From an uncultured Pseudomonas sp. (GTDB taxonomy: Bacteria; Pseudomonadota; Gammaproteobacteria; Pseudomonadales; Pseudomonadaceae), in assembly GCA_937863915.1 (NCBI GenBank), contig CALMID010000528.1, forward strand, positions 1 to 12,658: a stretch of DNA of 12,658 nucleotides, read 5' to 3'. Within the stretch, counting starts at the first letter, position 1; each line of letters opens with the position of its first letter. The position numbers were made by a program, and so were the translations under genes. Under the pieces are notes generated by a model. It worked only from the letters and a program-made list of their open reading frames with translations, was not told the origin of the DNA and ran no database searches. Positions 1 to 6,678 of the stretch are shown here, in pieces.

Positions 1-1863
1 GCTGGCTATCGCCGGATACAGCGCGTTGAAGCGTTCGCGCACCTGTTGCAGGTAGGCATAGCTGCTGAAGAACGCGAGGTAGTTGCCGGGTGCGCGCTGG
101 TACTGCTCGGCCATCAGCCGGCAGATGGGATCCAGGCTGGCGTCGCGGTGCTGGTAGCGGGTCGAGAGGTTGCGTACCACCCGTACATCCAGCTGCTCGG
201 CGGAGAAGGGCGACTCCACGTCGATCCACTGGGTTTCCTCGGGCAGCCCCAGCAGATCCTGGTAATAGTTGGCCGGGCGCAGGGTGGCGGAGAACAGGGT
301 TGTGGTGTGAGCGTTGCTGAAACGTTCAGCCAGAAACGGCGCTGGCACGATGTTGCGCAGGCACAGGGTGGTGTGGTCGCCGATGGCCTGGCTGTCCTGG
401 CGGGTCACGTCGAACAGCGAGTGCGGCCCATAGGCCTCGCTGAGCCGGCAGAACAGCATGGCGTTCAGATAGAACTGCAGCAGCAGACGATCCTGGCCGT
501 TGGGGTGGTCGGTCAGATGATCGGTGATGGCGCTGACCGTCCGTTGCAGGGCCGCCACCAGCAGGTCAGGCACCAGCGGGTGAATCTGGTAGTCGTCCTG
601 CTGTACCTGGTTGAGCTGCTCCCAGTGCCGGCTGACCCGCTGCAGGGTGCTGCGCAGGCTGGCGGGGGCGATGCGGCACAGCTCGTGAAACTCCAGCTGA
701 TCGAGTTCGGCGCTGTACATGCCGCGGGCCCTCTCGACCAGGTTGTGCGCCTCGTCCACCAGCACGGCCACGCGCCACTCGTTGATCTGCGCCAGGCCAT
801 AGAGCAGGGCGCCGAGATCGAAGTAGTAGTTGTAGTCACACACCACCACATCAGCCCAGCGGCACAGTTCCTGGCTCAGGTAGTAAGGACAGACCTGGTG
901 GGCCAGGGCGATGGCGCGTACCCGCTCCTGGGTCAGCCAGCCGTCCTGCAGGGCGGCTTTCCGGGCTTCGGGCAGACGATTGTAGAAGCCCTTGGCCAGG
1001 GGGCAGGATTCACCATGACAGCTTTTTTCCGGGTGCTCGCAGGCCTTGTCGCGGGCGACATGCTCCAGCACGCGCAAAGGTGTTGGGCTCTGCTGATCAC
1101 GCAGGCGCTGCAGGGCATCCAGGGCCAGGCGCCGGCCGGGCGTCTTGGCGGTCAGGAAGAACAGCCGGTCCAGTTGCTGGCCTGGCATGGCCTTGAGTTG
1201 GGGGAAGAGGGTGCCCAGCGTTTTGCCGATGCCGGTGGTGGCCTGCGCCATCAGGGTATTGCCGTCGCGGGCGCAGCGGTACACCGCCTCTGCCAGTTGC
1301 CGTTGGCCTCGGCGAAAGTCGGGGTAGGGAAAGCTCAGCGCCTGCAGATAGCTATCGCGGCGTGCTCGGTGGGCTTCTTCCTGTTCGGCCCATTGCAGGA
1401 AACGCTGGCACTGCTCGGCAAAGAATTCGCCCAGAGCATCGGCGCTCAGCACTTCAACGAAGGCATTCTCGGTATGGGTGAGCACGTTGAAGTAAACGAC
1501 GGCCAGCTCCAGCTCATCCAGGCCGAGTTGCTGGCAGAGCAGCCAGCCGTAAACCTTTACCTGCGCCCAGTGCAGTGCGCGGTGGTTGGCCGGAATGCGG
1601 CTGATGTCACCGCGGTGGGTTTTGATTTCCTCCAGCCGGTTGCGCTCCGGGTCATAGCCGTCGGCGCGACCGCTAACCAGCAGGCCCGGGTAGTGACCGC
1701 TCAGCGGCAGTTCGGCCAGGTAGCTGTCACCGCGTCGGCTGACAACCGTCTGGTGCCCGGCAATGCCTTCCTGGGCTGTCGGCGATGGGGTGAAACGCAG
1801 GTCGAGGTCGCCCTCCTTGGCGGTGAACTCGCAGAGGGCGCGGACGGCCACCGAGTAGGTCAT
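1..1863 (-). CDS. ATP-dependent DNA helicase of the XPD/DinG family with an N-terminal RecB-like nuclease domain (3' end outside the window)
   Basis: Superfamily 2 Fe-S helicase, expected to unwind DNA 5'-3' with ATP; 621 residues are visible and the C-terminus lies beyond the left edge. Residues ~25-130 form a PD-(D/E)XK nuclease of the RecB/Cas4 type: H37, D68 (SGRADG), E79-I-K81 and Q101-x3-Y105 match its active-site motifs. The helicase part begins near 180, with Walker A ATTGIGKT ending at T215, four cysteines suited to a 4Fe-4S cluster (C275, C282, C287, C325) and a DEAH box at 370-373 (VLVDEAHNL). The later helicase motifs near the C-terminus are not in view. The ATG overlaps the fan1 stop in an ATGA, so translation is probably coupled. 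This architecture recalls Dna2 (nuclease plus helicase), but with an XPD-type motor. The family assignment is clear from the motifs; a role in repair is inferred from the neighbour and the SOS-like box. Confidence 0.93.
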   Translation of the reverse strand, partial: MTYSVAVRALCEFTAKEGDLDLRFTPSPTAQEGIAGHQTVVSRRGDSYLAELPLSGHYPGLLVSGRADGYDPERNRLEEIKTHRGDISRIPANHRALHWAQVKVYGWLLCQQLGLDELELAVVYFNVLTHTENAFVEVLSADALGEFFAEQCQRFLQWAEQEEAHRARRDSYLQALSFPYPDFRRGQRQLAEAVYRCARDGNTLMAQATTGIGKTLGTLFPQLKAMPGQQLDRLFFLTAKTPGRRLALDALQRLRDQQSPTPLRVLEHVARDKACEHPEKSCHGESCPLAKGFYNRLPEARKAALQDGWLTQERVRAIALAHQVCPYYLSQELCRWADVVVCDYNYYFDLGALLYGLAQINEWRVAVLVDEAHNLVERARGMYSAELDQLEFHELCRIAPASLRSTLQRVSRHWEQLNQVQQDDYQIHPLVPDLLVAALQRTVSAITDHLTDHPNGQDRLLLQFYLNAMLFCRLSEAYGPHSLFDVTRQDSQAIGDHTTLCLRNIVPAPFLAERFSNAHTTTLFSATLRPANYYQDLLGLPEETQWIDVESPFSAEQLDVRVVRNLSTRYQHRDASLDPICRLMAEQYQRAPGNYLAFFSSYAYLQQVRERFNALYPAIAS

Positions 1864-3494
1864 GCCGCGTCCCAGCTCACGTAACAGACCTCGACGGGGA
1901 TGCCGTGCTCGGCGGCAAAGGCCAGCCAGCGTTTCTGGTTGTCCTGCAGGCGGTCGCCGGGACCTTTCACCTCGATCATCCGGTAGCGCCGCTCGGCCAG
2001 GTAGAACTGAATCAGGTCGGGCATACCGGCGCGGTTGGCCTTGAGATCACGCAGCAGGCGTTCGAAACAGGCGCGCAGATGCCGGGCGGGGATGCACAGC
2101 AGCGCCTGTTCCAGCAGAGGCTCGTCCAGCCCTTCCCAGAACACGAATGGCGACTGGATGCCGAACTTTTCGTGGTAGCGCTGGCGAATCCGCTCGCCGT
2201 GCTCCTCACGGTCCAGCCGTGCCAGGCAATCCTCGAACAGGTGCTGGCGCCGGGCATGGAAGTCATCTCGGTAGAGGTCGGCCGGGCCGCTGTGAAAGGG
2301 ATGAAAGAATGCACCCGGCAACGGCGCGAAGATCGCCTCCCAGCACAGCAGGCCGAACAGGCTGCAGAGCAGGGTGTTCTCGACGTAGTGCACCGGCGCG
2401 GCAGCATCGTGCAGATGGTCGCGTACGGCGAACTCCACGCTGCCCTGTGGCGGGCGCGCCAGGCTCAGCTCAAAACGGCATTCAGCCGGCGCCTGGCGTC
2501 TGCCTGTCTGCGCAACGCCAAGCTTGCGCTGCAGCCGCTGTAGGGCGCGCCCCAGACGCTGAGCCTCTTCATCGCTATGCGGTTGGGTGCTGAAGTGCTG
2601 CGCCTGCTCAAGGGCCTCGGCCGGACGGTCGAGCTGTTCCAGTACGCGCACCTGACGCCAGCGGGCCTCGCCGTGGTCGCAGACTTGATAGAGCGCCAGC
2701 GCCTCGTCAAGCCGACCCTGGCGTTCCAGTTGCTGGGCCAGCTGGAATTGCAGCCGCGCATGGCGGGAAAGCAGGTGCGGATTGTCGCTGCTGAAGGCGA
2801 GCAGGGCAGGCAGTATGGCATCGACCGGCTCGCCCGACTCGAAACGCTCGCGCCAACGGTAGAGCTGCAGGTAGTCGTCGACATCCTGCCGGCAGCGAAA
2901 GCCCCGTGACTCGGGGCCGATCTCGACGGGCTCGTAACGGTAGATGCCCAGATCGGCCAGCACGAACTCCGACCAGTCCTGGGCGAGATTGCCGAAGAAC
3001 ATCAGCCGCAGGCGATCACAGAACTCGCCGACCAGCAGGGTATAGATACGGTCCTCCAAAGCCGGGCACCAGTCCGAAAAGGGCTTTGCGGGCAGTCCGA
3101 GAGCCTGCAACTGCGCATCCAGGTCGCTCTTCTTCTGAGTGCTGCGCCGGTCGGTTAGCGGCAGCTGGGCGAGCATTTCATCCTTGCGCAGCAGCGCTGC
3201 CACTTCACCGGCTTCAAGTGGCGCACGATCACTGATCCAGCCCCGGGCCAGCAGCACGGCAGCGGCCGCTTCGGTATCGCCGATTTCGGCATAGACCAGC
3301 TTGCTGCGGCGAAAGTGCACGCCCCGGCGCATGATCATGCGCACCAGCAGAGCCTGGGCAGGCCAGTCGGTGACGGCAAATTCGCGAAGAAAGAGCTGTT
3401 CCTCGCTCGTCAGCAGGTCGGCATAACGCTCGTTCACCCAGGCGAGTGCCGTGCGGAAGTTGCTGAGGTAATAAAGCTCGGGAGGAAGGGGCAC
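1860..3494 (-). CDS. fan1: FAN1-type structure-specific nuclease (VRR-NUC domain protein)
   Basis: Bacterial FAN1 homologue, 544 residues, close to the size of Pseudomonas FAN1. FAN1 enzymes cut 5' flaps and other branched DNA and help unhook interstrand crosslinks. An N-terminal DNA-binding region (~1-220, starting with the family-like YYLSNFRTAL) is followed by a helical TPR-like part (~235-325). The C-terminal VRR-NUC domain (~365-540) carries the catalytic residues E372 (in VEN), D493 (GMPDL), E508 and K510 (IEVKGPGD) and Q520 (DNQ). The chosen start is GTG at 3494. The frame stays open far upstream, but that stretch contains the LexA box and has no family similarity; no in-frame ATG is close, and no clear Shine-Dalgarno is seen. 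The gene is first in an operon with the helicase, overlapping it by 4 bases. Likely SOS-regulated through the box at 3512-3527. Function is certain at family level; the exact start is less so. Confidence 0.94.
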   Translation of the reverse strand: MPLPPELYYLSNFRTALAWVNERYADLLTSEEQLFLREFAVTDWPAQALLVRMIMRRGVHFRRSKLVYAEIGDTEAAAAVLLARGWISDRAPLEAGEVAALLRKDEMLAQLPLTDRRSTQKKSDLDAQLQALGLPAKPFSDWCPALEDRIYTLLVGEFCDRLRLMFFGNLAQDWSEFVLADLGIYRYEPVEIGPESRGFRCRQDVDDYLQLYRWRERFESGEPVDAILPALLAFSSDNPHLLSRHARLQFQLAQQLERQGRLDEALALYQVCDHGEARWRQVRVLEQLDRPAEALEQAQHFSTQPHSDEEAQRLGRALQRLQRKLGVAQTGRRQAPAECRFELSLARPPQGSVEFAVRDHLHDAAAPVHYVENTLLCSLFGLLCWEAIFAPLPGAFFHPFHSGPADLYRDDFHARRQHLFEDCLARLDREEHGERIRQRYHEKFGIQSPFVFWEGLDEPLLEQALLCIPARHLRACFERLLRDLKANRAGMPDLIQFYLAERRYRMIEVKGPGDRLQDNQKRWLAFAAEHGIPVEVCYVSWDAA

Positions 3495-3511
3495 GTGTGA
3501 CTGACCAGATA

Positions 3512-3527
3512 CTGTTTTTACATACAG
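3512..3527 (-). promoter_or_regulatory. LexA operator (SOS box) upstream of fan1
   Basis: On the minus strand this reads CTGTATGTAAAAACAG, which has the invariant CTG-N10-CAG frame of gammaproteobacterial LexA sites and matches the CTGTATATATATACAG consensus at 13 of 16 positions. It ends 17 bases before the GTG start of fan1 and begins 1 base after the candidate -10 element, so bound LexA would block the transcription start of the fan1-helicase operon. Its location in front of a DNA-repair operon makes a chance match unlikely. Binding is predicted, not shown. Confidence 0.75.
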
Positions 3528-3528
3528 G

Positions 3529-3557
3529 ATTGTCTCGCTGGTATGGAAAATCAGCAA
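3529..3557 (-). promoter_or_regulatory. Candidate sigma-70 promoter of the fan1-helicase operon
   Basis: On the minus strand TTGCTG (3557-3552) is followed after 17 bases by GACAAT (3534-3529). The -35 is weak (3 of 6) and the -10 moderate (4 of 6), but spacing is ideal. Transcription would start inside the adjacent LexA box, the usual layout of an SOS-repressed promoter, leaving a leader of about 30 bases before the GTG. Confidence 0.4.
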
Positions 3558-3935
3558 CCGCTGGCGTCGCGCAGAAACGGCGTGGTGGTGGCTGGCTGCT
3601 GGGTGTGATCTGAAAAGGCAGGCACTCGCGTAAGACTGCGCATCAAGTACCTGGAATATCCGCTGTGACTCAGTCTCCGGACGCGTCATCATCAGGCCGG
3701 GTGCTGTTTTTTGAGAGGCCTGGCGCAAGGCCAAAACTCCAGTCACTGTGCTTAGCCAGGCATGGCCAATTCGACGGGCTGCAGGTGCTATCGTTGCATG
3801 GCGGGGGCAGGGGCTGAAGCCTGTTGCCTGCGATGCACCGTAAAGTTTTTTCATCGAGCAAAGACATGGCCTGTAAGGTTGGAGCGGTTGAACCCGATGT
3901 CCCATGCTGTGCAAGTTGCTGTAGGGAAGGCCGCA
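3558..3935. other. Gene-free interval between the divergent fan1 operon and the cyclase operon
   Basis: I see no protein family in any frame here. Open frames run in from both neighbours but carry unlike, family-free sequence. It holds a small hairpin (GGCCT 3717-3721, AGGCC 3728-3732, loop of 6) downstream of a run of six T, and a second T-run at 3845-3850. I found no convincing sigma-70 or sigma-54 promoter for the cyclase operon, although one must lie here or a little upstream. The interval is long enough for a regulated leader. Confidence 0.5.
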
Positions 3936-5279
3936 ATGCCAATGAGAAACGCCGGTTTCATGGTCAACAACAATGTGATGGATCTGCTGCTGGATGCCAT
4001 CTGTGTTGTCAGTCGTGAAGGTCGCTTTGTTGGAGTTAGTCCCGCCTGTGAGCGGATTTTTGGCTATTCGCCCGAGGAATTGATTGGGCGGGCCATGATC
4101 GAGCTGGTTTTCCCCGATGATCGCGAACGTACCCTGCAGGCGGCGCGCGACATCATGGCGGGCGTCGATATGCTCTGCTTCGAGAACCGCTACGTTCACA
4201 AGGACGGGCGGATCGTGCATATCCTGTGGTCGGCGCGCTGGTCGGAAGTCGACCATGTGCGCGTGGCCGTGGCCCACGACATTACCGAGCGAAAGCGCAG
4301 TGAACTGAGGCAGGCCGCGACCTTTGCCATCTCCGAGGCGACCCACGCAGCGCAAGACCTGGCCGGTTTGCTGCAGCGTATTCATCAGATCATTGCCGAA
4401 CTGATACCCGGCAGCGATTTTGCCGTTGTTCTGCAGAATGAGGATGCCAATTCGCTTCGTGTGGCTTACCCACTGACAGTGCAGGGCGCGAGCTCAACGG
4501 TGCTCGACTTTGCCCGGCAGGTCATCCACGGCACGCTGGATTTTGTCGAGGCGGGCGGTCTGGTCAGCCCTCAGGATGGCGACGCGCCTGTCTGGCTGGG
4601 CGTGCCGCTCAACGCCGGTCAGGATGGCCTGGGGGCTCTGATCCTTCACGGAACATCCGAGGTTCGCTACACCGATCAGGACAAGCAGCTGCTGCATTAT
4701 GTCGCGACTCAGCTAGCCACCTTTATCGAGCGGCAGCGCATGCTCAGCCGCTTGCAGTTCATGGCGCAGTTCGATCAGCTCACCGGCCTGCCCAACCGGG
4801 CCCTGTTGTTTGACCGCCTGCACATTGCCCTGGCGCGCGCCAAGCGCGAGCAGACGCAGCTGTCGCTGCTGTTCCTCGATCTGGACAAGTTCAAGCAGGT
4901 CAACGACAGTCTCGGTCACAAGGCCGGCGACCAGTTGCTGCAGATGGTCGCTCAGCGTTTGCTGGGCTGCATCCGTGAGTCCGATACGGCGGCGCGCCTG
5001 GCGGGCGATGAGTTTGTCGTACTGCTGGAAGATGCCGGTGCAGCAGAAGGCATTGCCGGCGTCGCCGAAAAGATCCGCTTCACCCTCAGTCAGCCCTTTG
5101 AGCTGGAGGGCCTGGCGCACTTTGTATTGCCCAGCATCGGCGGTGCTGTGTATCCCCAGCATGGCAGCGAGGCGCAGCAGTTGTTGCAACGGGCCGATCA
5201 TGCGATGTATCAAGCCAAGCGGGCTGGCGGTAATCGTTTCCAGCTCGCTCACGATTCAGACCTTTCGATGATGCTGTAG
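3936..5279 (+). CDS. Diguanylate cyclase with PAS and GAF sensor domains
   Basis: Makes cyclic di-GMP from two GTP; 447 residues, with no signal peptide or membrane segment, so cytoplasmic. A PAS domain spans ~15-117 and ends in the typical DITERKRSE linker. A GAF domain follows (~130-265), then the GGDEF domain (~275-440) with DQLTGLPNR, FLDLDKFKQVND and the active-site loop AGDEF at 356-360. The first Gly of the motif is Ala, a variant found in active enzymes. An inhibitory I-site RESD (347-350) lies five residues before it, so product feedback is likely. The ATG at 3936 is chosen for the AGGGAAGG ribosome site at 3923-3930; in-frame ATGs at 3942 and 3897 are alternatives. Stop TAG is 4 bases before the next cyclase, indicating an operon. 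Signals sensed by PAS and GAF are unknown. Confidence 0.92.
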   Translation: MPMRNAGFMVNNNVMDLLLDAICVVSREGRFVGVSPACERIFGYSPEELIGRAMIELVFPDDRERTLQAARDIMAGVDMLCFENRYVHKDGRIVHILWSARWSEVDHVRVAVAHDITERKRSELRQAATFAISEATHAAQDLAGLLQRIHQIIAELIPGSDFAVVLQNEDANSLRVAYPLTVQGASSTVLDFARQVIHGTLDFVEAGGLVSPQDGDAPVWLGVPLNAGQDGLGALILHGTSEVRYTDQDKQLLHYVATQLATFIERQRMLSRLQFMAQFDQLTGLPNRALLFDRLHIALARAKREQTQLSLLFLDLDKFKQVNDSLGHKAGDQLLQMVAQRLLGCIRESDTAARLAGDEFVVLLEDAGAAEGIAGVAEKIRFTLSQPFELEGLAHFVLPSIGGAVYPQHGSEAQQLLQRADHAMYQAKRAGGNRFQLAHDSDLSMML

Positions 5280-5283
5280 GTGC

Positions 5284-6678
5284 TTGTTGCGCTATTTACT
5301 GTTTTTGAGCGTGCTGCTTTCCCTGCCGGTGATGGCGCAACTGTCCCTGACTGGCGAGCAACAGGATTACCTGCGGCGCAATCCCCAGGTCAGCCTGTGT
5401 GTCGACCCGGACTGGGTACCTTTTGAAGCACTGGATTCGCAGGGGCGGCATGAGGGTATCGCCGCCGATCTGTTGCGATTGCTGGCCAGCCGCGCCGGTC
5501 TGAACCTGCGCATTCATCCGACCCGGAACTGGGAGGCGTCTCTGGCGGCGTCCCGCGCCGGCGATTGCCAGTTGCTGAGTTTTCTCAATCAGAGCGCCGA
5601 GCGCGATGCGTGGTTGCTGTTTACCGACCCGATATTCAATGACGGCAATGTCCTGATCAGCCGGGAGGAGCATCCGCGCGTCGACGACCTGGCGGAATTT
5701 GTCGGCTCACGCATGGCCCTGCCTGCCGGTACCTCGGTCGAGACGCGCTTGCGCCGTGACTACCCGGGCTTGGAAATCATCCTGACGGAAAGCGAGGCCC
5801 AGGCGCTGGCGCTGGTCAATGAGCGCAAGGCGGAACTGACCATGCGCTCGCTGACCGTGGCCGCCTACACAATCAAGAAGGAAGGCTGGTTCAACCTGAA
5901 AATTGCCGGCCAGGTTCAGGGCTACGACAACCTGTTCCGCATTGGAGTACTCCGCAGCGAGCCGGTGCTGCGGGACATTCTCAATCAGGCGATTGCCACC
6001 CTGACCCCCGAAGAGGTCAATGGCATCGTCAATCGGCATGTGGCCATCCGTGTGGAGTCGCCCACGGATTACCGCCTGTTTTTCCAGTTGCTGGTGGTCT
6101 TCGGGGTGATCCTCCTGAGCAACCTGTTCTGGGTGGCCCGCCTGCGTCGGGCGAATCGACAGCTGGAGGAGCAATCGCTGTTCGATGTGCTCACGGGGCT
6201 GGCCAACCGCAAGCAGCTCAATGGCTTTTCGCAGATCTGTTTCGAGCTGTCCCGGCGTCATGAACGACCGATGGCCGTGGTGATGTTCGATATTGATTAC
6301 TTCAAAACGGTAAATGATCAGTTGGGGCATCTGGCCGGCGACAAGGTGCTCAAGGAGGTTGCAGAGCTGCTGTCGGCCTCGGTGCGCAAGGGCGATTGCC
6401 TGGGGCGCTGGGGCGGTGAGGAGTTCTTGCTGATCTGCCCCGAGACCACGCTGGAAAGCGCCATGCTTTCAGCCGAGCGGATACTGGAGAAGATGCGCCA
6501 TTGCCGCTTCTCCACCGGGCAGGCCTACACCCTGAGTGCCGGCGTTGCCCAGTTGGCGCCTGGCGAAAACCTCGATGAGCTGATCCAGCGTGCCGATGAC
6601 GCGCTCTATGCCGCCAAGGCGGCCGGCCGAGATCGTGTGTGCGCGGCGAATCCAGCCCCGGCGCCAGCTTTGGCGTGA
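5284..6678 (+). CDS. Membrane diguanylate cyclase with periplasmic solute-binding sensor (SBP_bac_3-GGDEF)
   Basis: c-di-GMP synthase of 464 residues. A signal peptide (LLFLSVLLSLPVMA, cleavage near residue 18) precedes a family 3 solute-binding domain (~25-255), which should lie in the periplasm and bind a small ligand. R107 in SAERDAWLLFTDP sits where amino-acid-binding members hold the ligand carboxylate, so an amino-acid-like ligand is possible. A membrane helix (~264-284) leads to the GGDEF domain (~298-455): DVLTGLANRK, FDIDYFKTVND and a full GGEEF (377-381), with I-site RKGD (368-371) five residues ahead. The start is TTG at 5284 or the adjacent TTG at 5287; the AGG at 5278-5280, overlapping the previous stop, suits 5287 better. 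It is probably co-expressed with the upstream cyclase. Catalytic activity is well supported; the ligand is a guess. Confidence 0.92.
   Translation: MLRYLLFLSVLLSLPVMAQLSLTGEQQDYLRRNPQVSLCVDPDWVPFEALDSQGRHEGIAADLLRLLASRAGLNLRIHPTRNWEASLAASRAGDCQLLSFLNQSAERDAWLLFTDPIFNDGNVLISREEHPRVDDLAEFVGSRMALPAGTSVETRLRRDYPGLEIILTESEAQALALVNERKAELTMRSLTVAAYTIKKEGWFNLKIAGQVQGYDNLFRIGVLRSEPVLRDILNQAIATLTPEEVNGIVNRHVAIRVESPTDYRLFFQLLVVFGVILLSNLFWVARLRRANRQLEEQSLFDVLTGLANRKQLNGFSQICFELSRRHERPMAVVMFDIDYFKTVNDQLGHLAGDKVLKEVAELLSASVRKGDCLGRWGGEEFLLICPETTLESAMLSAERILEKMRHCRFSTGQAYTLSAGVAQLAPGENLDELIQRADDALYAAKAAGRDRVCAANPAPAPALA

Follow-up and report, generated by a model that had tools for sequence, protein, structure and literature searches.

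Do the two DNA-repair genes that adjoin each other at one end of a Pseudomonas contig form an operon under SOS control, and do their products act together? The window examined here is the entire 12,658-base contig CALMID010000528.1 from an uncultured Pseudomonas sp., whose source assembly comprises 2.74 Mb in 559 contigs and is 77% complete. Its minus strand carries fan1, encoding a FAN1-type nuclease of 544 amino acids (aa) (positions 1860-3494, assigned by Pfam and homology, with GTG at 3494 as the inferred start), followed by a gene for an EndoDinG-type nuclease-helicase (positions 1-1863), which is cut by the contig end after 621 aa and was identified by Pfam and residue conservation. Sequence evidence and published induction in P. 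aeruginosa together indicate that the two genes probably constitute a LexA-repressed two-gene DNA-repair operon, and direct LexA control of the box upstream of fan1 is predicted with high confidence. The SOS control proposed in the original prediction, which was made from the sequence of this locus, is strongly supported because the box is conserved, the operator type matches the host lexA promoter, and induction of PA1865 and PA1866 in P. aeruginosa has been published.

The LexA-type box, CTGTATGTAAAAACAG, lies on the minus strand at positions 3512-3527, with 17 nt between it and the likely GTG start, and is assigned by motif match and genus-wide conservation. It differs from CTGTATATAWWHACAG by 1 mismatch and is the sole site in the window with at most 3 mismatches, compared with a mean of 0.05 in dinucleotide shuffles. 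By hand comparison, it agrees with CTGTATATATATACAG at 13 of 16 positions and contains CTG-N10-CAG, exactly as the original prediction had described. In the source genome, CTGT-N8-ACAG occurs at 10 sites versus 5 for a reversed control pattern; two of the 10, CTGTATAAAAAAACAG and CTGTATATATTCACAG, precede lexA (LexA by NCBIfam), and at least four of the remaining sites have a GC-rich center. The fan1 box is similar to the genome's own SOS boxes, including the operators of the host lexA. A promoter beside the box had also been proposed, and a possible TTGCTG-N17-GACAAT can be read by eye on the minus strand at positions 3529-3557, ending 1 nt before the box, with TTG...GACAAT at similar spacing in the relatives L012, L013, L014, and L015; a promoter scan reported no promoter, however, and this element is best regarded as a weak candidate.

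LexA-like sites were also noted near other genes of this genome, and two of the 10 sites precede radical SAM genes. On contig C518 (L010, 242-1756), CTGTATATAAAAACAG lies 15 nt upstream of a TIGR03916 gene for a putative DNA modification/repair radical SAM protein. This gene overlaps another that is cut by the locus end and matches TIGR03915 (putative DNA repair) in part and below the cut-off; these TIGR03916/TIGR03915-like genes are likely another SOS pair. On contig C21 (L002, 1-414), CTGTTTAAATATACAG precedes a PA0069-family radical SAM gene cut by the contig start. The palindrome CTGTATGTGCATACAG on contig C153 (L003, 1501-1516) lies between convergent genes read as encoding a chemotaxis receptor and a PAS-GGDEF protein, and is probably not a promoter operator.

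Conservation of the box was assessed among 298 Pseudomonas genomes, 286 of which contain fan1. The analysis covered 110 fan1 loci from 109 genomes (the window's own locus, another 29 from the search, and 80 hand-picked regions), all oriented by tblastn, as orientation by open frame alone misplaces L017, L019, and L031. A strict rule, under which a site must read CTG-N10-CAG, have at least five A/T among its eight central bases, and carry T4 or A13, was satisfied at 101 of the 110 loci. Shuffling these sequences left 0.6 such loci on average and never more than 4; two intragenic control positions gave 0/110 each, and a region farther upstream gave 0/30. Under a looser rule, by which the best-scoring site needs only CTG-N10-CAG, the count rises to 106 of 110. 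One locus scored as a match, L091, has its site 142 nt upstream, more distant than at the other loci. Among 11 named loci, a site stands upstream of fan1 in ten, including two of three from Herbaspirillum and one from Pollutimonas, and the box of P. aeruginosa PA7 is CTGTATGCATGAACAG; at the remaining locus, L188, none was seen within the 144 nt of upstream sequence available. The operator is conserved across species, and a search of many Pseudomonas genomes, which had been suggested as a check of the box, has thus turned out in its favor.

More informative still is the behavior of the operator outside the genus. A phylum-wide sample of 398 genomes contained FAN1_HTH in 55, yielding 45 non-genus fan1 loci from 44 genomes. 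When CTGT-N8-ACAG-type sites were scored on a scale with a maximum of 24, strong sites (21 or more) were found at 17 of these 45 loci, whereas shuffled sequences would give 0.19. Families f205 and f208, which belong to another class of the phylum, have no site of this type; instead, GAAC-N7-GAAC, which we take to be the alphaproteobacterial LexA box, occurs at all five fan1 loci from four genomes, compared with 0.005-0.02 per locus in shuffles and 0/40 in the other non-genus loci. The lexA promoters show the same division: GAAC-N7-GAAC was found in 4/4 of those genomes and in 0/26 others, and 20 of these 26 other promoters score at least 21 with the CTGT type. Because the fan1 operator and the host lexA promoter switch motif together, the fan1 operator appears to follow, and judging from these motifs matches, the LexA of its host. 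In genome G595, the gene order is umuD-umuC-fan1-EndoDinG, with UmuD over and UmuC just under the NCBIfam cut-off; since fan1 stands directly behind umuD/umuC, it may there be induced from the umuDC operon.

Published expression data from P. aeruginosa point in the same direction. Papers name PA1865 as FAN1, and PA1866 would be its EndoDinG, judging from the gene order in PA7. A study cited in PMC8526614 found that ciprofloxacin raised eight genes in strain PA14, namely recA, recX, PA3413, sulA, lexA, PA2288, PA1865 (Fanconi-associated nuclease 1), and recN. PA1865 and PA1866 are described in PMC12796719 as induced by UV-C and are placed outside known LexA-like regulons, with PA1865 also induced by ciprofloxacin; PMC10714927, where it names PA1865, does so solely because a large deletion ends there. 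The P. aeruginosa system resembles that of the window in its full-length FAN1 homolog, in the same gene pair and box in PA7, and in damage induction, but differs in that the passages of PMC12796719 on this gene leave its regulator unassigned. The window pair could also be considered as PA1044-PA1045 (dinG), reported LexA targets that include the DinG helicase (PMC12796719) and thus likewise SOS genes; this was ruled out, as FAN1 is PA1865 according to the papers. That pair represents a different locus, and with 48.9 bits, the window helicase falls far below the 598 bits required by the E. coli-type DinG profile NF008729 (NCBIfam). The enzyme families, and damage induction of fan1 alongside SOS genes, are already known. 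A full-text literature search, mostly at the level of matches, found no assignment of fan1 to LexA, no FAN1-helicase link in bacteria, and no account of the operator, of its switch, or of the conservation of the pair.

The second part of the question concerns the pairing of the two genes. In the window, the fan1 stop and helicase start overlap by ATGA at positions 1860-1863 on the minus strand, as had been claimed. The fetched stretch included the start of the helicase at 67 of the 110 genus loci, always no more than 30 nt from the fan1 stop, and the helicase follows fan1 at 11/11 named loci; in P. aeruginosa PA7, the pair stands beside genes whose translations suggest a mod-type transporter and a regulator of the TetR type. 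A set of 50 genomes from Pseudomonas, made up of every fan1-less genome (12) and 38 hand-picked ones with fan1, contained both genes in 38, neither in 12, and one alone in none. Nine of the 12 pair-less genomes have a completeness of 99% or more. An rpoB tree was built for 29 genomes, of which 18 have the pair and 11 lack it, and parsimony on it requires 9 changes of presence or absence, or 8 when the two least complete genomes are removed, a count to be read with the low support of some branches and the hand-chosen pair-bearing genomes in mind; the tree comprises 25 genomes of the 50-genome set and four others in which the helicase was seen, G284 being left out for want of an rpoB match. At the phylum level, with EndoDinG presence defined by an E-value of at most 1e-10, both genes occur in 36 genomes, FAN1 only in 19, EndoDinG only in 7, and neither in 336 (Fisher p 3e-30), and the genes are adjacent in 35 of the 36 genomes that have both. 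The pairing of fan1 with the helicase is real. In a class-wide sample of 229 genomes, FAN1_HTH exceeded the cut-off in 9, with EndoDinG adjoining on the contig in five and absent in three; G357 has a weak EndoDinG match elsewhere, and G404 has EndoDinG without FAN1.

The operator and the pairing come together in genomes where the genes are separated. In G759, fan1 and EndoDinG lie on different contigs, each with its own box, CTGTATATGCATACAG and CTGTACATCCATACAG. Where FAN1 occurs without EndoDinG, an SOS-like site is found in f140 (6/6) and in none of the f176 loci (0/6); where EndoDinG occurs without FAN1, two f179 genomes have a site, G884 has a weaker one, and the four other f108 genomes have none. 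Judging from these boxes, then, there are lineages in which either gene seems to be an SOS gene by itself. This pattern speaks for a common pathway and against a strict dependence of each gene on the other; their association is real without being absolute. Two further genomes deserve mention here. G255 carries two fan1-EndoDinG pairs (L013 and L071), and in G080, fan1 is split into two matches and EndoDinG into four, so that both genes appear broken or badly assembled.

Several observations weigh against a LexA-controlled operon. The strict rule fails at 9 of 110 Pseudomonas loci: at L074 and L079, the center of CTGT-N8-ACAG is richer in GC, at L016 and L017, the ends read CTGG..CCAG, the center at L073 is GC-rich, L134 lacks the first C, L071 (the second fan1 copy of G255) has box spacing shorter by one base, and L026 and L030 show nothing box-like. 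Outside the genus, four of the 17 strong sites, all in f140 (four of its six sites), end in CAC rather than CAG; seven of eight f168 fan1 loci (L242, L244, L248, L250, L251, L253, and L256) have only a degenerate ATGGAT-N4-GA(A/C)CAG; and f169, f172, f173, f183, and f184 join f176 in having fan1 without a good box. In f168, the five lexA promoters examined also score below 21, and a shift of LexA specificity is possible in this family. In PMC12796719, PA1865 is reported to be repressed by hydrogen peroxide while other SOS genes rise, which does not fit simple SOS control. As for the pairing, fan1 ends in ATGA at just 33 of 110 genus loci, so the 4-nt overlap is common and not general; three of the 12 pair-less genomes are only 73-86% complete; lone FAN1 in 19/398 and lone EndoDinG in 7/398 genomes show that either gene can stand alone; and adjacent genes tend toward joint loss.

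Both enzymes look active from their conserved active sites. FAN1 exceeds the Pfam cut-offs for VRR_NUC (123.8 bits), FAN1_HTH (116.5 bits), and FANC_SAP (31.9 bits), with its VRR-NUC catalytic domain (P492-D493, E508-x-K510) at positions 1872-2204 on the minus strand. Across 165 loci, E372, D493, and K510 are conserved in 165 and E508 in 164; we take these residues to be catalytic. Its nearest named matches are from Pseudomonas sp., followed lower down by Stutzerimonas, Ectopseudomonas, and other split-off genera. Over residues 3-542, it aligns at 588 bits with PDB 4r89 and 5y7g, which we take to be P. aeruginosa FAN1, also in view of a 93% match to PA7, and it aligns with PDB chains of animal FAN1, a member of the same nuclease family, at 72-77 bits over residues 371-539. 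Titles cited in PMC12796719 attribute 5'-flap and crosslink-unhooking activity to P. aeruginosa FAN1. Pseudomonas FAN1 open frames are listed at roughly 550-690 aa, the window's own frame excepted; those of f205/f208 and f140 at L226, L228, L229, L230, L235, L237, L238, and L239 span 724-784 aa, and FAN1 in these families probably has an extra N-terminal part. The FAN1_HTH match at L272 (G538) lies in an open frame of just 118 aa, so that fan1 may be broken there although a box-like site is present.

The original prediction described the downstream gene as an Fe-S helicase with its own nuclease domain, and the conserved PD-(D/E)XK residues, the four cysteines, and a DEAD_2 match above the Pfam cut-off all agree with it. 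Alignment places the N-terminal PD-(D/E)XK core (H37, E51, D68, E79, K81, Q101, Y105) at positions 1534-1776, the Walker A motif ATTGIGKT (aa 208-215) at 1219-1242, the Fe-S cysteines C275, C282, C287, and C325 at 889-1041, and the DEAH box (aa 370-373) at 745-756, all on the minus strand. In 72 helicase relatives, the nuclease residues are invariant except E51 (71/72), as are the four cysteines and K214, D370, E371, and H373, with Walker A and DEAH residues conserved in 69 to 72 of 72; with the inclusion of two distant members, C282 falls just short of invariance. Full-length relatives measure 748-797 aa, one 16-aa fragment aside. Among PDB chains compared by sequence, 9kqh scores 294 bits and FANCJ, the next, 35 bits, which places the helicase nearer the EndoDinG type than FANCJ. 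EndoDinG of Bdellovibrio bacteriovorus shares the N-terminal PD-(D/E)XK domain with its H, E, D, E, and K residues, the CCCC Fe-S motif, and the DinG-like helicase according to a 2025 review (PMC11981726), in which endonuclease cutting by the founding EndoDinG is given as unpublished data; matching the window residues to the positions in that review is our own assignment. By contrast, FAN1 is absent from the review's main text, and its EndoDinG section is silent on SOS control and gene partners. At L262 (G736) and L266 (G893), the gene that EndoDinG overlaps encodes roughly 300 aa and contains a D...EVKASRADLL stretch reminiscent of a PD-(D/E)XK nuclease. This partner was considered as a distant FAN1 and rejected, having no tblastn FAN1 match, no Pfam match, and, for the one protein tested, no NCBIfam match; it is possibly a second kind of nuclease partner.

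A mechanism can be proposed from these features. In undamaged cells, LexA on the box between the promoter and the start codon would block transcription, and after damage, RecA-stimulated cleavage of LexA would release repression, so that one message with overlapping stop and start codons would yield both proteins. At stalled forks or crosslinks, EndoDinG would then probably translocate along single strands in the 5'-3' direction and open the duplex, FAN1 would cut the exposed 5' flap or unhook the crosslink, and the EndoDinG nuclease would trim or cut the displaced strand. Joint action on one substrate, suggested by the known activities of the two families, has roughly even chances. A bolder view is put forward only tentatively: FAN1 and EndoDinG, with one helicase and two different nucleases of the PD-(D/E)XK type between them, would make up a physically coupled, damage-induced machine dedicated to flap or crosslink processing, and selection for LexA control would have been sufficient for the operator to be rebuilt upon a change in LexA specificity or a split of the operon. 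The parallel to crosslink repair by animal FAN1 with FANCJ, which had also been drawn in the original prediction, is a possible one: FANCJ is a distant Fe-S helicase relative of the window protein, but the bacterial helicase has its own nuclease domain, and the bacterial genes are predicted to form one damage-induced operon.

The strongest rival explanation accepts fan1 as a true LexA target and holds that each enzyme deals with lesions of its own, independently of the other, and that adjacency serves co-regulation only. The SOS-like boxes of lone FAN1 in f140 (6/6) and f205/f208 (5/5 loci), as well as lone EndoDinG with its own box in G765 and G834, are what it would predict; it sits less easily with the strong co-occurrence, the adjacency in 35/36 genomes, and the lack of any single-gene genome among the 50 from Pseudomonas, with 8 to 9 changes on the rpoB tree, and it is considered rather unlikely. 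A second rival, in which the pair is an anti-phage or plasmid-defense module, draws on the match of the helicase part to PADLOC typeIV_DinG (1.6e-84, residues 174-615) and on the VRR-NUC domains common in phages. Yet fan1 is core-like, being present in 286/298 Pseudomonas genomes, and FAN1 itself has no PADLOC match; this reading is rejected as very improbable. With regard to a type IV CRISPR CasDinG, Pfam annotation of the ten window proteins revealed no csf-type gene in a window that covers just one side of the helicase, and the single Cas10-palm match is below cut-off and inside a GGDEF domain. The window contains two tandem GGDEF genes on the plus strand (3762-6678; PAS-GAF-GGDEF and solute-binding-domain-GGDEF), divergent from fan1. 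Least credible of all is the idea that the box binds another repressor or a nucleoid protein and resembles a LexA site by descent or chance, for which the peroxide repression of PA1865 (PMC12796719) would speak, but which is opposed by the tracking of the host lexA promoter (GAAC-N7-GAAC versus CTGT-N8-ACAG), the position of fan1 behind umuDC in G595, and the rise of PA1865 with canonical SOS genes under ciprofloxacin (PMC8526614).

A 2026 UV-response study of P. aeruginosa left the induced genes PA1865 and PA1866 without a known LexA-like regulator; on the strength of the conserved box, LexA is predicted to control the two of them directly. If true, such control would place bacterial FAN1 and flap/crosslink repair in the SOS response, and the pair would offer a small bacterial system for genetic tests of cooperation between FAN1 and an Fe-S helicase, apart from the animal Fanconi pathway.

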